From contig JAQBYC010000027.1 in NCBI GenBank assembly GCA_027623205.1, positions 1 through 46,879 of the forward strand: DNA of 46,879 bases, written 5' to 3'. This DNA comes from Pseudomonadota bacterium. GTDB lineage: Bacteria > Pseudomonadota > Alphaproteobacteria > GCA-2731375. The position numbers and the translations under genes are program-made. Of this stretch, positions 2,602-35,214 are shown one piece after another. The notes below the pieces were generated by a model, which worked only from the letters and a program-made list of their open reading frames with translations, did not search any database and had not been told where the DNA came from. Position 1 is the first letter of the stretch; each line of letters opens with the position of its first letter.

Positions 2602-3349
2602 GACCAATCAGGCAATTCGGTCCAATCTGTTCAACCTGCTGTTTTACGCATGGTCGACCTTCATGGTGATCGCGTTTTTGCCCGCTTTGGTGTTGCCCTA
2701 TCAAGTGACCGTCTGGGGTCAGCGGCAATGGGCCAGAGGCGTCAATTATCTGATGCGATGGAGCGTCGGCATCCATATAGAATATCGTGGCCTGGAACAG
2801 CGCCCGCATAGCGGCGCGATTGTGGCTGCCAAGCACCAATCCGCATGGGATACCTTGATCTGGCACGTCATCCTTGACGATCCGGCAATAGTCATGAAGC
2901 AGGAGCTGTTGAGCATTCCCATCTACGGCTGGCTGTGTCGCAAGACCCGCATGATTGCGGTGGATCGCAAGGCTGGCACAAAAGCGTTGCGGGCGATGCT
3001 GGAAGATGGACGGACCGCCATAGCGCTGGGCCGGCCCATCGTGATATTCCCCCAGGGTACGCGTACGGCAACGGGCGCATCGGTCGAGGATGCGCCCTAC
3101 CAACCTGGCGTATCCGCGCTATATCGGAACTTGGATGCGCCGGTGGTGCCGGTGGCGTTGAATTCCGGTCTGTTCTGGCCGCGGCGGCAATTTATGCGCC
3201 GACCCGGCACCATCGTACTGGAGTTCCTGGAACCCATTCCGCCCGGCCTGCCACGCAAGGAGTTTGATGCCTTGTTAAAGGATCGCATCGAAACCGCCAC
3301 CGCTGCTCTTGAGGCGGAAGCTTCGCCGGAACGGGGGGGGAAATTATGA
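2579..3349 (+). CDS. plsC: 1-acyl-sn-glycerol-3-phosphate acyltransferase (PlsC family)
   Basis: It transfers an acyl group to lysophosphatidic acid to make phosphatidic acid at the inner membrane, an early phospholipid step. The 256-residue protein has a hydrophobic N-terminal segment at about 19-42. The catalytic H-x4-D motif follows (H86 and D91 in KHQSAWD), then the glycerol-phosphate binding block FPQGTRT at 157-163, a variant of the usual FPEGTR. VPVALNSG closes the conserved domain. The start overlaps the end of the YdcF-like gene by 23 bases. A second ATG at 2591 is equally possible, and neither has a strong ribosome binding site. Substrate preference among acyl acceptors cannot be read from the sequence. 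Confidence 0.88.
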   Translation: MVISMVLKTNQAIRSNLFNLLFYAWSTFMVIAFLPALVLPYQVTVWGQRQWARGVNYLMRWSVGIHIEYRGLEQRPHSGAIVAAKHQSAWDTLIWHVILDDPAIVMKQELLSIPIYGWLCRKTRMIAVDRKAGTKALRAMLEDGRTAIALGRPIVIFPQGTRTATGASVEDAPYQPGVSALYRNLDAPVVPVALNSGLFWPRRQFMRRPGTIVLEFLEPIPPGLPRKEFDALLKDRIETATAALEAEASPERGGKL

Positions 3350-7018: not shown

Positions 7019-8116
7019 ATGAAAATTTTGCTGTTAAGCACCGCGGCATTGCTCGCGGTGAGTGCAATGTGGATTACGCAGGCGGCAGAGGCACAAAGTA
7101 GTCCCGATGTGGTCGCGAAATCCAAGGCCATGGTGCCCATGCCGCCGTGGCCAGCCAGCGACCAACGGGGCATGGCCAATACCATGGGTCCCGGCACTTG
7201 GATGCGTTGCGCTCAACATCTGACCAACGCCAAATCAAAAACCTATGAAATTTCCCACCTCCGCTCCAATACCATGCCGCTATCGCCCTTTGGCGTGCCG
7301 TTGCAGTATCAATACCGCCCCACCGTGGGCATTCCCGGCACCAGGCACGCCTTCAATGGTGAACAGGTAACCAGCGGCGAACCCGGCGCCCAGGGCACGC
7401 AAATGGATGCTTTAGGGCATTTCGCCTATTTCGATGACGCCTGGGACGGCAAAAGCGAATTTCCCGCCGCCCAGGCGCATTATTATGGCGGCTATGGACA
7501 AAGCGATGTCAAACCATCGGCAGGTTCGCCGCTTTTAAAATTGGGCATCGAGAATGTACCGCCCATCGTCACTTCCGCGGTGCTGCTGGACGCCAAAAGC
7601 CATCTGGGCGGCGGCCAGGCGATGAAGCCCGGCCAGTTGGTCACGACCAGGGATATCACCGCCATGCTGGCCGCGCAGGGTCTCGCCTGGCGCGGCCTAT
7701 TGCCGGGCGACGTGCTCTACATCTACACCGGCTGGAGCGATAATTGGAAAGATCCGGACAACGAGAAGATGTATTACACCAAGGGTCCTGGCCTGTCCTA
7801 CGACGCGGCGCAATATCTGCGCGAAAAGGCGGTCGTTCTGGTCGCTCTGGATAATCCGTTCACAGACCCAGTCAACGATGGTCAATTGATGGGCAAGGCC
7901 GGCCCGGCGGAAGGCGCTCCCGCCGGACTGCCCTTCGCCGTCCATCACGAAAATCTGGCCGTGTCAGGCATTCATCAGATCCAGAATGCCAATTTGGCCG
8001 ATTTGGCCAAGGATAAAGTCTGGACCTCGTGCACGATGATATTGCCGCTGCGGTCCCGTGGCGGTTCAGGCTCACCGGTCCGGCCGGTCGCCATCGGCGC
8101 GCCCAACCAATCGTAA
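7019..8116 (+). CDS. Secreted cyclase-family (kynurenine formamidase-like) hydrolase
   Basis: Proteins of this fold are metal-dependent hydrolases of amides, formamides or cyclic compounds. The 365-residue product starts with a clear signal peptide (positive MK, a hydrophobic core to about residue 18, then AEAQ), so it should act in the periplasm. The family signature H-x-G-T-H-x-D-x-P-x-H appears as AQGTQMDALGH: the Asp and last His are kept, but the two earlier histidines are Ala and Gln. A later HHENLAVSGIH segment fits the family's C-terminal half. Its substrate is unknown. It converges on the luciferase-like gene at 8216-9259. A weak hairpin (GACCCG 8179-8184, CGGGTC 8191-8196) lies between them. 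AGGGGAGG six bases before the ATG supports the start. Confidence 0.8.
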   Translation: MKILLLSTAALLAVSAMWITQAAEAQSSPDVVAKSKAMVPMPPWPASDQRGMANTMGPGTWMRCAQHLTNAKSKTYEISHLRSNTMPLSPFGVPLQYQYRPTVGIPGTRHAFNGEQVTSGEPGAQGTQMDALGHFAYFDDAWDGKSEFPAAQAHYYGGYGQSDVKPSAGSPLLKLGIENVPPIVTSAVLLDAKSHLGGGQAMKPGQLVTTRDITAMLAAQGLAWRGLLPGDVLYIYTGWSDNWKDPDNEKMYYTKGPGLSYDAAQYLREKAVVLVALDNPFTDPVNDGQLMGKAGPAEGAPAGLPFAVHHENLAVSGIHQIQNANLADLAKDKVWTSCTMILPLRSRGGSGSPVRPVAIGAPNQS

Positions 8117-32430: not shown

Positions 32431-33198
32431 TTGAACACGGAAATTGAAGCGCAAAACCGCAACATTCTGATTACCGGCGCCGCCAGCGGCATCGGCGCGG
32501 CCCTGTGCCTGCGGCTGGCGCGGCCGGGCACCAGTTTGTTCATTCATACCCGGGCCAACCGGGCCGGCGCGGAAGCGGTGGCCGAAGCGGTGGTTGCGGC
32601 AGGTGGTCGCAGCCAGATCCTGCTTGGTGATCTGGCCGACGCGCCCGTGGCGGACCAATTGATCGCGGCCGTGGCGGCCCATGGTCGTTTGGACGGGCTG
32701 GTCGCCAACGCCGGTTTCGCTGACAAAACGCCGTTGGCGGATCTGGACGATGCCGGTCTGGCCCGCAGCCTGGCGGCCATGCCTGCAGCATTTCATCGTC
32801 TTTGCCGGGCCGCCATGCCCCTGTTGCAGGCTGCACCAGCGGGCCGGGTGATTGCCGTTTCGTCCTTTGTCGCCCACCGCTTCCAGTTGGATGGAGTATC
32901 CATGCCAGCAAGCGCGGCGGCGAAGGCGGGACTGGAGGCCTTGGCCCGCGCCCTGGCCGTGGATTTGGCGCCGCATGGGGTGACGGTGAATTGCGTCGCG
33001 CCTGGTTATATCCAGAAACAGCCGGGCGCCCATGCCGCCCTGGATGCCGAGAATTGGCGCCGGGCCAGCGCCCGCATCCCCCTCGGCCGCCTGGGACAAC
33101 CGGACGAAATTGCTGCCTTGATTGAATTTTTACTATCGCCGGGCGCCGCCTATATCACCGGTCAGATCATTCATGCGGACGGCGGCATGAGCCTTTAG
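32431..33198 (+). CDS. SDR family protein lacking the usual catalytic tyrosine
   Basis: This is a short-chain dehydrogenase fold of 255 residues: TGAASGIGAAL near 15-25, DGLVANAG at 88-95, the strand VIAVSSF and the C-terminal GAAYITGQIIHADGG. The active site is unusual. Where SDRs have Y-x3-K, this one reads S161-A-A-A-K165, and the usual helix-4 Asn is replaced by Ala. It may be inactive as a standard dehydrogenase, may use a different residue, or may be regulatory. It starts at TTG 32431, the only start before the nucleotide loop, with AAGGA eight bases upstream. No operon partner is evident. Confidence 0.8.
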   Translation: MNTEIEAQNRNILITGAASGIGAALCLRLARPGTSLFIHTRANRAGAEAVAEAVVAAGGRSQILLGDLADAPVADQLIAAVAAHGRLDGLVANAGFADKTPLADLDDAGLARSLAAMPAAFHRLCRAAMPLLQAAPAGRVIAVSSFVAHRFQLDGVSMPASAAAKAGLEALARALAVDLAPHGVTVNCVAPGYIQKQPGAHAALDAENWRRASARIPLGRLGQPDEIAALIEFLLSPGAAYITGQIIHADGGMSL

Positions 33199-33354
33199 GA
33201 AGCATCAAAATTGCGGTGTTTTCGCCCGCCCGGCGGGCAGCCGTCCGCGGTCCGTGTTCAAGCGCTCGTGATCGCATTTGATTGGATTTGCGCCATGGAT
33301 GTGGTCAGATGGCAGATACAAGATGACAACAATCCTGACTTGGAGGCCCAATCT

Positions 33355-33606
33355 ATGAAGAACCCGACCGCGAAAATTAAGACCATCCTAGGCTCCGTGG
33401 CCATTGCCGCCATGACCGCCACCGCCACCCTGCCAAGCGCCCTGGCGGCCTGCGGGGCGGCCAAAAAAAGCAATGCCTGCAACCCCTGTGCCGCGAAAAA
33501 GGGATGCAGCCCCAGCAATCCTTGCGCCGCGAAAAAGGGTTGCAACCCCTGCGGTGCGAAGAAGGCCTGCAGCCCCTGCAATCCCTGCGCCGCGAAAAAG
33601 AAATAA
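33355..33606 (+). CDS. Small exported cysteine-repeat protein (possible lipoprotein)
   Basis: I do not recognise a functional family. The 83-residue product has a signal peptide (basic start, hydrophobic core at 11-26, then PSALAAC). LAAC at 30-33 fits a lipobox with Cys33, although ordinary signal peptidase cleavage is also possible. The mature part is only about 51 residues with ten cysteines and a repeat of the type C-[NS]-P-C-[AG]-A-K-K. CxxC pairs are at 42/45, 63/66, 72/75 and 75/78, and every unit has a double lysine. Such sequences suit metal binding or disulfide networks in the envelope. GGAGG (33342-33346) lies eight bases before the ATG, and a strong terminator follows, so it is a single-gene unit. 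A longer frame from 33211 is unlikely. Confidence 0.82.
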   Translation: MKNPTAKIKTILGSVAIAAMTATATLPSALAACGAAKKSNACNPCAAKKGCSPSNPCAAKKGCNPCGAKKACSPCNPCAAKKK

Positions 33607-33645
33607 ACCGCGAAAAAGACGCACAGCGTCCCGGACATCCCTGAA

Positions 33646-33681
33646 CCCGCCGCGCCTTATGGCGCGGCGGGCTTCGTTTTA
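33646..33681 (+). terminator. Intrinsic terminator of the cysteine-repeat gene
   Basis: A perfect 11-bp GC-rich stem (CCCGCCGCGCC 33646-33656 with GGCGCGGCGGG 33661-33671) with a TTAT loop is followed by CTTCGTTTTA. It lies 40 bases after the stop and close to the end of the convergent aminotransferase gene. Confidence 0.85.
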
Positions 33682-33715: not shown

Positions 33716-35110
33716 TTATTGCGCCGCTGTCGCGCCCTGCTGCTTCAACTGCATGGCAGCCTCATCCAGCGCCCGGGTGAAACGGTCAAACATTTCGTCA
33801 ATCTCGCTGGCCGAAATGATCAGCGGCGGGCAAAAGCCCAGAATGTCGCCGGGCATGGCGCGGGTAATCAGACCATGTTCCTGGGCCGCATTCTGGATCA
33901 GAGCGCCAACCTTGGCGGCTGGATCATAGGCACGCTTGGTCTCCTTGTCGGCGGCGATTTCCACGGCACCGATCAGACCCACGCCACGGGCGTTGCCGAC
34001 CATGTCATGCGCCCCCAGGGCCGCGATTCTTTTCTGGAATTGCGGCGCCACGGTGCGTACGTGGCCGATTATGTCCCGCTCCTGCATCAATTGTTGTGTC
34101 CGCAAGGCCACCGCCGCACAGGCGGGATGGGCGGAATAGGTATAACCATGGCCAAACAGGCCCAGTTTCTCCGAATTGCCGCGCAGACCCTGGTAAATTT
34201 CCTCGCTGATCATCACCGCTGAAATCGGCAGATAGGCCGATGACAGCGCCTTGGCGCAAGTCAGAATGTCGGGCTGAATGCCATAGGTCTGACTGCCCCA
34301 CATGTTGCCGGTCCGGCCAAAGCCGCAAATTACCTCGTCGGCGATCATCAGGACGTCATATTTTTTCAGGACCGCCTGAATTTTCTCGAAATAGGTTTTT
34401 GGCGGCAAGATGACGCCACCGGCGCCCATTACCGGTTCGGCAATGAAGGCCGCCACGGTTTCCGGCCCCTCTTCGAGGATCATGTCTTCCAGGGCTTGTG
34501 CGCAGCGCGAGGCGAAATCCTCTTCCGATTCGCCTACCTCCCCACCCCGGTAATAATCCGGGGTCATGGTGTGGCGCACGAAATCCAGCGGCAGGTCAAA
34601 ATCCGCCTGGGCATAGGGCAGGCCGGTCAGGCTGCCCGCAGCCACGGTTACGCCATGATAGCCGCGCAGACGGGAGATGAATTTCTTCTTTTTCGGTGTG
34701 CCGCGGGCATTGTTGAAGTACCAGACCATTTTCACGGCCGAATCGTTGGCTTCCGAACCGGAATTGGCAAAGAAAACCTTGGAAAATTCAACTGGCGCGA
34801 TCTCTTTAAGTTTCTCCGCCAGATCAATGGCGGGATGCACGGATTTGCCGGCAAAACCGTGATAATAAGGCAAGGTACGCAATTGTTCCGTGGCGGCTTT
34901 GACCAGTTCTTCCTCCTCAAAGCCAAACGAGGCGCACCAAAGGCCGGCCAGACCTTCAATATATTCCTTGCCGCTTTCATCCGTGACATAAACGCCCCGG
35001 CCCTTGGCCACGATATGCGGCCCGTTAATTTCGTGGGCCGCCAGGTTTGTAAAGGGATGCAGATAATGGGCGATGTCCCGGCTGGCGGGTGAATTGCCGC
35101 GATCATTCAT
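33716..35110 (-). CDS. Class III PLP-dependent aminotransferase
   Basis: It transfers an amino group from an omega-amino acid or amine to an oxoacid such as pyruvate. The 464-residue protein has NSGSEAND near 116-123 (PLP phosphate), YHG at 151-153, the cofactor Asp258 in LMIADEVICGFGRTG, the PLP Lys287 in LTCAKALSS and GHGYTYSAHP. These match the omega-amino acid:pyruvate or taurine/beta-alanine type. The donor is not readable from the sequence. ATG 35110 is preferred: AGGAAG lies upstream, and a longer frame adds 11 unlike residues. It diverges from the acyl-CoA dehydrogenase gene at 35327 across 216 bases and converges on the cysteine-repeat gene. Confidence 0.9.
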   Translation of the reverse strand: MNDRGNSPASRDIAHYLHPFTNLAAHEINGPHIVAKGRGVYVTDESGKEYIEGLAGLWCASFGFEEEELVKAATEQLRTLPYYHGFAGKSVHPAIDLAEKLKEIAPVEFSKVFFANSGSEANDSAVKMVWYFNNARGTPKKKKFISRLRGYHGVTVAAGSLTGLPYAQADFDLPLDFVRHTMTPDYYRGGEVGESEEDFASRCAQALEDMILEEGPETVAAFIAEPVMGAGGVILPPKTYFEKIQAVLKKYDVLMIADEVICGFGRTGNMWGSQTYGIQPDILTCAKALSSAYLPISAVMISEEIYQGLRGNSEKLGLFGHGYTYSAHPACAAVALRTQQLMQERDIIGHVRTVAPQFQKRIAALGAHDMVGNARGVGLIGAVEIAADKETKRAYDPAAKVGALIQNAAQEHGLITRAMPGDILGFCPPLIISASEIDEMFDRFTRALDEAAMQLKQQGATAAQ

Positions 35111-35214
35111 GGGATAGCTTCCTTTCCTGGCATCGGACCCCACTATTTTGGGACGGGGCCCCTAAACGCCAACCATATTGAAATTGGATTGGCGCCATTT
35201 CACGCTTTCTTGCC

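Follow-up and report, generated by a model that had tools for sequence, protein, structure and literature searches.

A short exported CNPC-repeat protein of alphaproteobacteria shares a promoter with its cytochrome P460 fusions and is a candidate soft-metal buffer

We describe an alphaproteobacterial family of short, cysteine- and lysine-rich repeat proteins, whose repeat also forms the N-terminal arm of larger proteins with a cytochrome P460 domain, and whose genes share a promoter with those of the larger proteins. The best explanation for the short protein, which we hold tentatively and at slightly less than even chance, is a Sec-exported, disordered, metallothionein-like thiolate buffer, most likely for Cu(I). 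The family has no Pfam or NCBIfam model, and its function can be approached via the promoter; the significance of the case rests on this family-wide promoter and on the fusion to a haem enzyme. Hereafter, the window is the whole stretch of DNA that was analysed, 46,879 nucleotides of one contig (JAQBYC010000027.1).

The gene and its flanks

The gene in the window forms a single-gene unit, as the original prediction had proposed, with a promoter-like site of its own (described below), a terminator and two flanking genes:

33355 to 33606, plus strand: gene of the short CNPC-repeat protein, 83 aa with 10 Cys (ATG at 33355, stop codon ending at 33606)
33342 to 33346, plus strand: GGAGG ribosome-binding site, 8 nt before the ATG
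33646 to 33679, plus strand: intrinsic-type terminator, 11-bp G/C stem and T-rich tail
Ending at 33198, same strand as the short gene: SDR-type gene, named by eye
33716 to 35143, minus strand, convergent: aminotransferase-type gene, named by eye

The ribosome-binding site that had been noted is present, and GGAGGC is kept in all 11 aligned upstream regions of the genus. The terminator had been called perfect. Its hairpin has a stem of 11 bp, all G/C, and a 4-nt loop (33646-33671), followed by CTTCGTTTTA; the run of T is interrupted, so that the word perfect goes slightly too far. Shuffles of the region are expected to yield 1.8 terminator-like matches. Nonetheless, the window's terminator is unlikely to be a chance match, because a G/C-rich hairpin follows the stop codon in 9/9 same-genus genes inspected, seven found by script as an uninterrupted stem of at least 11 pairs and two (L006 and L009) seen by eye alone and interrupted or shorter.

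The order SDR-type gene, short gene, aminotransferase-type gene is retained in several genomes of the genus. Both are housekeeping-type genes and reveal nothing about function. An Rfam scan of the window returned tRNA as its sole match. Elsewhere in the window, between 37811 and 43491, lie consecutive DHQ-synthase, unassigned, UbiA, phosphodiesterase and TatD genes, a run which we take to resemble an ebo-type cluster.

The protein and its export

The protein consists of a signal-like N terminus and a repeat:

33355 to 33447, plus strand: signal peptide, residues 1-31, ending in SALA and followed by A, assigned by visual inspection and a comparison across 74 relatives
33448 to 33603, plus strand: mature repeat region of C[NS]P[CS] and (A/G)AKK units, read from the sequence

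Ten cysteines in about 51 residues, arranged in a repeat of CxxC and Ala-Lys-Lys units, had been noticed before, and both count and repeat are confirmed: the 51 residues from Cys33 to Lys83 include 10 Cys. The mature part is free of His, Phe, Trp and Tyr, a composition that suits a metal buffer, as originally suggested. AlphaFold2 predicted disorder for 13 relatives (mean pLDDT 43), and the 83-aa protein had no family match in Pfam or NCBIfam up to E 10.

The protein had also been read as a possible lipoprotein on account of the tetrapeptide LAAC (residues 30-33). The motif does stand at the signal end; lipidation is doubtful. Directly before the first cysteine, 27/32 short relatives carry a tetrapeptide of the form [LVIM][ASTVIG][GAS]C. 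In 15 of the 32, which are the window's subfamily and include the window protein, it lies at the signal end (LAAC, LASC, MAAC, VAAC, VASC or VAGC) and fits a lipobox-like pattern. However, an AxA site for signal peptidase I fits the same place equally well in this subfamily, and three further short relatives carry AYAGC. In the other 12 short relatives the tetrapeptide caps the repeat 12-39 residues past the hydrophobic core, and a LAAC-type tetrapeptide is found 15-49 residues past it in 9/42 long relatives. So far from the core the motif cannot be a lipobox, which makes lipidation of the window protein doubtful as well; its LAAC may be a lipobox or a coincidence with the AxA cleavage site. 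We clearly favour cleavage by signal peptidase I on this comparison of N termini. A lipoprotein form, with Cys33 lipidated, the repeat anchored to a membrane and nine cysteines left free, is therefore unlikely, at perhaps one chance in five; it is a separate question, which could be combined with either of the two leading functions discussed below.

Conservation and spread

Among 40 relatives searched, the short gene was matched in 10/10 genomes of the same genus, of which seven hold a complete copy; the incomplete ones are a short copy in G004 (47 aa), one cut at a contig end (G006) and one in which N hides everything beyond residue 21 (G008). Over codons 1-32, the signal region, pN/pS is 0.127 (nine sequences, one of them partly masked). 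Given these matches and this ratio, the gene is real and its reading frame is under selection. The frame is thus conserved in relatives, and the number of repeats is not. Nine copies counted carry from 3 to 12 Cys: G001 (L012) has 72 aa and 9 Cys, G004 (L013) 47 aa and 3 Cys, and the other complete copies have 10 to 12 Cys. Variable repeat number speaks against a fixed stoichiometry, bearing in mind that the genus copies come from draft assemblies, where repeats can collapse.

Beyond the genus, the family profile matched 25/289 genomes and 19/223 genera at E 1e-6 in a sample drawn from the class. A scan of named genomes gave 147 confirmed relatives, and the analyses below cover the best 80 of these 147 (77 loci). 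Wherever the title goes to class or lower, these best 77 loci are all alphaproteobacterial (a few are titled Proteobacteria or Pseudomonadota alone), and they include Sneathiella, Denitrobaculum, Hyphomicrobium, Kiloniellaceae, Minwuiaceae and many MAGs. A tblastn search of PLSDB plasmids at E 1e-5 found no family match. In the open-access literature searched, we found no description of the CNPC-repeat family or of cysteine-rich P460 fusions.

Fusions with cytochrome P460

Cytochrome P460 is a haem enzyme that acts in the chemistry of hydroxylamine and nitric oxide. In 45 of the best 77 loci the repeat is the N-terminal part of a larger protein that ends in a CxxCH haem domain, and all five fusions tested pass the gathering score of PF16694 (Cytochrome_P460). 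The P460 fusions, like the shared promoter, were absent from the earlier reading and came to light through homologue searches of the kind originally suggested, without which they could not have been seen. The genome of the window has a fusion of its own:

L004, 7445 to 8581, minus strand: P460 fusion, PF16694 match above the gathering score

By eye, one of the 45 loci (L072, a Hyphomicrobium MAG) joins the repeat to a different cytochrome-c-like domain.

The P460 domain of a fusion is predicted with high confidence (pLDDT 93.6), and the predicted fold matches 7ead, 6hiu and 2je2. The cytochrome c'-beta (7ead) and cytochrome P460 (6hiu) match about equally, so the fold comparison, itself made on a model, does not separate the two. 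K82 of the domain is invariant (34/34) and lines up with the Lys in the stretch VTVKELVSV of 2je2, the P460 of N. europaea, in a profile match that is weak (E 0.13). In that protein Lys70 forms the haem cross-link, according to a 2025 review (PMC11928373). The cross-link lysine would therefore be kept in the fusions; equating the residue aligned with K82 with Lys70 presumes a numbering offset of one residue.

Next to the own-genome fusion lie genes of FGE-sulfatase type and of DUF6969 type, the second of which owes its name to its likeness to a tested relative. Further on lie ApbE, Fer4_5 and cytochrome-cd1 (PF02239) genes, which we take to be nir/nos genes; those for cytochrome cd1 and ApbE are about 6 kb away.

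A shared promoter

The aligned upstream regions of the genus share a block whose length is constant and which lies some 100 nt ahead of the ATG. Comparison of this block with distant relatives gave the template of a tripartite site, which in the window is followed by a weak -10-like hexamer:

33258 to 33283, plus strand: putative activator site TCAAGCGCTCGTGATCGCATTTGATT, TCA[AC]-N6-[GT]TGA-N6-[GT]TGA[CT]T, 14/14 match, 97 nt before the ATG
33306 to 33311, plus strand: -10-like hexamer CAGATG, at constant spacing from the site, with the conserved A present and the final T absent

With these elements in place, transcription would start at about 33318.

At a threshold of 12/14 or better, the site stands upstream of 47/74 usable family genes; dinucleotide shuffles give an expectation of 0.45, a value that is post-hoc because the template was read from sequences later counted. 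Three checks are independent of this. In a spacing scan on the core letters (11/12), 44 loci fall at gaps of 6 and 6, and at most seven at any other pair of gaps. The -10-like hexamer, 48-53 nt after the start of the site, lies outside the template and has its A in 23/33 and its T in 26/33 non-redundant sites (p of about 1e-7 and 7e-12, respectively). Finally, 11 whole genomes of the genus hold 23 exact sites, and none of the reversed pattern. Eleven of these 23 precede the short gene, one per genome, five a P460 fusion and six a third secreted protein; one falls in none of these places. In several named families, too, the site precedes genes of both architectures; the promoter is thus shared between the short genes and the fusions.

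Control by the site is not universal, since 27 of the 74 regions fall below 12/14, among them a second type of P460 paralogue (L069, L080, L087, L102). One of the misses (L116) was counted as such owing to a wrong start, and by eye the full pattern lies before the true start. The 74 regions are what is left of 82 inputs after eight were set aside because the start was not found or a contig ended (L020, L059, L076, L091, L092, L095, L097, L101).

Three earlier candidates were abandoned. A first form of the site with a second gap of N7 reached at least 10/12 in 28/74 regions against about 3.8 expected, and had three exact own-genome matches against one in the control, none of them at family genes; the N6 form replaced it. 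A leader RNA hairpin or riboswitch, suggested by an apparently covarying TTGGC...GCCAA in the genus block, was rejected because the -10 columns place the start of transcription downstream of the hairpin, and a conserved upstream ORF (GTG ATC GCA ...) because orthologue L006 has a TAG within it.

With one mismatch allowed, the own genome holds 11 sites against one in the control; apart from those of the short and third genes and of the fusion, most lie inside other genes and look like chance. One of them (L165, own genome, C198:14498-14523, minus strand) precedes a gene that by eye resembles a PrkA stress kinase. An exact site precedes the third gene in 6/11 genus genomes. The product is secreted, about 112 aa long and of the form MPDxMDxSCLAxDTL...GxWTLVE...CVHA, and neither Pfam nor NCBIfam gave a match over the cut-off:

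L167, 7224 to 7571, minus strand: third secreted gene, site at 7661; also in L137, L140, L143, L149 and L157

As for a regulator, a mixed cluster of signalling proteins occurs near 22 of the best 77 loci; the seven tested are five histidine kinases, one response regulator and one chemotaxis receptor. The own genome encodes a homologue of the Sneathiella-type kinase (48% identity), beside which no response regulator gene was recognised by eye.

Neighbouring genes of the relatives

Neighbours were taken as clusters of called genes within the fetched flanks, with Pfam run on one or a few members per cluster; three of the 77 loci (L062, L078, L096) have no called neighbour. The commonest neighbour is DUF6969 (PF22308), at 28 of the best 77 loci (for example L070, 2691-3434, minus strand), on which no paper was found in the open-access literature searched. 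A secreted FGE-sulfatase-type protein (PF03781) is encoded near 14/77. The own-genome copy lies beside the fusion:

L004, 8777 to 9646, plus strand: FGE-sulfatase-type gene, PF03781 tested

In 14/15 of these FGE-type proteins, when aligned, KGGSWDD.GCG[VI]CR recurs and its two cysteines are invariant (L121 ends before that point). Those beside CNPC/P460 genes thus carry CGxC, whereas true FGEs carry C-x4-C.

A gene for a pyridine-nucleotide-disulphide oxidoreductase precedes seven short genes, and one for a VTT-domain protein five. Sulf_transp (PF04143) is found near seven of the best 77 loci and DUF302 near four. Directly downstream of five P460 fusions of the second type lies a plastocyanin-type cupredoxin gene (one tested, PF00127); in L069 this cupredoxin gene is at 2950-3300, plus strand, and the other four loci are L080, L087, L101 and L102. 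At L069, a chemotaxis receptor gene follows the cupredoxin gene. Small secreted proteins with RLTQ.GCQF.EPEG...FSCPLN.TP.Y are encoded near three short genes (L063 1932-2438, plus strand; L103; L116 5266-5763, plus strand), and one of them has a sub-threshold match to Cupredoxin_1. A curated search with NCBIfam models on seven related proteins gave none over the cut-off.

Possible functions

We favour an exported soft-metal buffer because of the composition, the export signal, the lack of a predicted fold and the cupredoxin and FGE-type neighbours of relatives. The short protein would be produced when needed: an activator acting at the tripartite site, together with the -10 element, would switch on the gene's own promoter, and the same activator site would also drive the repeat-P460 paralogues. 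After cleavage by signal peptidase I, its ten cysteines, mostly in CxPC pairs, would hold a soft metal outside the inner membrane, most likely Cu(I), and the charges of the Ala-Lys-Lys spacers would balance the metal-thiolate clusters. The cupredoxin, FGE-sulfatase-type and disulphide oxidoreductase genes of relatives provide a copper or soft-metal context. Several findings count against this: no copper gene lies beside the short gene of the window, which across the genus is flanked by genes of housekeeping type; proteins with an FGE domain vary widely, and those near family loci keep CGxC; one relative (G004) has 3 Cys only; DUF6969 says nothing about copper; and the link to P460 points to nitrogen oxides as much as to copper.

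That last point leads to the main rival, to which we give about one chance in four. Here, the exported CxPC dithiols would be a sacrificial or redox-active thiol sink that reacts with NO or with nitrosating or oxidising agents, acting in the same response as the P460 haem enzyme. The common promoter argues for it, as do the putative cross-link lysine that, by alignment, the P460 domain keeps, the cytochrome-cd1 and ApbE genes near the own-genome fusion, and the resemblance of CxPC to thioredoxin-type motifs. However, thiols arrayed on a protein in the oxidising periplasm would have to be kept reduced, and no reductant is linked to the gene in the window; the genes near other relatives suggest copper proteins; and the fold fits cytochrome c'-beta, which has no cross-link, as well as it fits P460. 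With the promoter shared with P460 and the cytochrome-cd1 gene, a nitrogen-oxide or general thiol role is plausible beside the soft-metal buffer.

Improbable, at about one chance in ten, is a structural or surface coat, in which disulfides would join the Lys-rich protein into a matrix adhering to lipopolysaccharide or DNA, with no role for metal: very low complexity, high Lys and Cys content and a variable repeat number would suit it, whereas a coat would hardly share its promoter with a haem enzyme or form part of that enzyme, and would not need a CxPC pattern kept so strictly.

The weakest reading is that of a precursor of a modified peptide. The composition had originally been thought to suit one made by a DUF692-type (MNIO) enzyme, with the reservation that no such partner lay nearby. 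The reservation holds for the whole genome: PF05114 (MNIO/DUF692) has no match in the own genome (97% complete) and matches 1/11 genus genomes, all 11 of which carry the short gene (2/14 control genomes match). An MNIO-made RiPP is therefore very unlikely. Also quite improbable is modification by another enzyme, such as a secreted FGE-type protein acting on C-x-P-x repeats. FGE substrates have a C-x-P-x core, which CNPC and CSPC fit, and PF03781 proteins occur at the loci given above; yet the own-genome FGE gene adjoins the fusion and not the short gene, the FGE-type proteins have CGxC in place of C-x4-C, and no Arg follows the C-x-P-x motif.

Wider meaning

Since the short protein appears to be turned on through the same kind of site as a haem enzyme bearing the repeat, it probably belongs to a hitherto undescribed system that deals with copper or reactive nitrogen outside the inner membrane. 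A more elaborate proposal, which we regard as a long shot, is that the tripartite activator site marks out an alphaproteobacterial stress regulon not described before, whose members have the CNPC array in common. The polythiol would occur free and as the N-terminal arm of P460, and the secreted FGE-type protein encoded beside many members would modify the C-x-P-x repeats after export. If true, this would be a new extracytoplasmic system of cysteine modification or of defence against metals or nitrogen oxides. If the protein is a metal buffer, an exported metallothionein-like protein would exist in a lineage without MNIO enzymes, and a function like that of the bufferins would have arisen in a second way. 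The shared promoter links the short protein to cytochrome P460 in abundant marine bacteria, and the activator site offers a readable handle by which the regulator and further regulon members could be found.

Comparison with known systems

Classical metallothioneins are cytosolic. The CNPC protein resembles them in its high cysteine content, its CxxC pairs with Lys beside the clusters, the lack of His and aromatic residues and the lack of a stable metal-free fold predicted for it. It differs in its export signal and in having no match to a curated metallothionein model (Pfam, NCBIfam to E 10).

The long paralogues end in a domain of the cytochrome P460 / cytochrome c'-beta superfamily (PF16694), whereas the window protein itself has no P460 domain. 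The long Cys-repeat N terminus of the fusions has no counterpart in the main text of the 2025 P460 review, which contains none of the words 'fusion', 'cysteine-rich' and 'copper' (PMC11928373).

A further comparison is with bufferins, exported Cu-binding Cys-rich peptides that need MNIO enzymes, as described in a paper on them (PMC12452194). Like the bufferins (Buf1/DUF2282, Buf2) and oxazolins of that text, the CNPC protein has a Sec-type signal followed by a small Cys-rich domain; some bufferins are likewise single-gene units, about 16% of Buf2 are predicted lipoproteins, and fusions between bufferins, cytochrome c and FGE-sulfatase domains are reported there, with FGEs called cuproenzymes (PMC12452194). 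Unlike bufferins, the CNPC protein matches neither DUF2282 nor any other curated bufferin domain (Pfam, NCBIfam to E 10), occurs without MNIO in its own genome as in 10/11 genomes of the genus, varies in the length of its CNPC/CAAKK repeat, and is fused to P460 rather than to cytochrome c or FGE. By analogy, the CNPC protein may do the work of a bufferin while not belonging to the bufferins.
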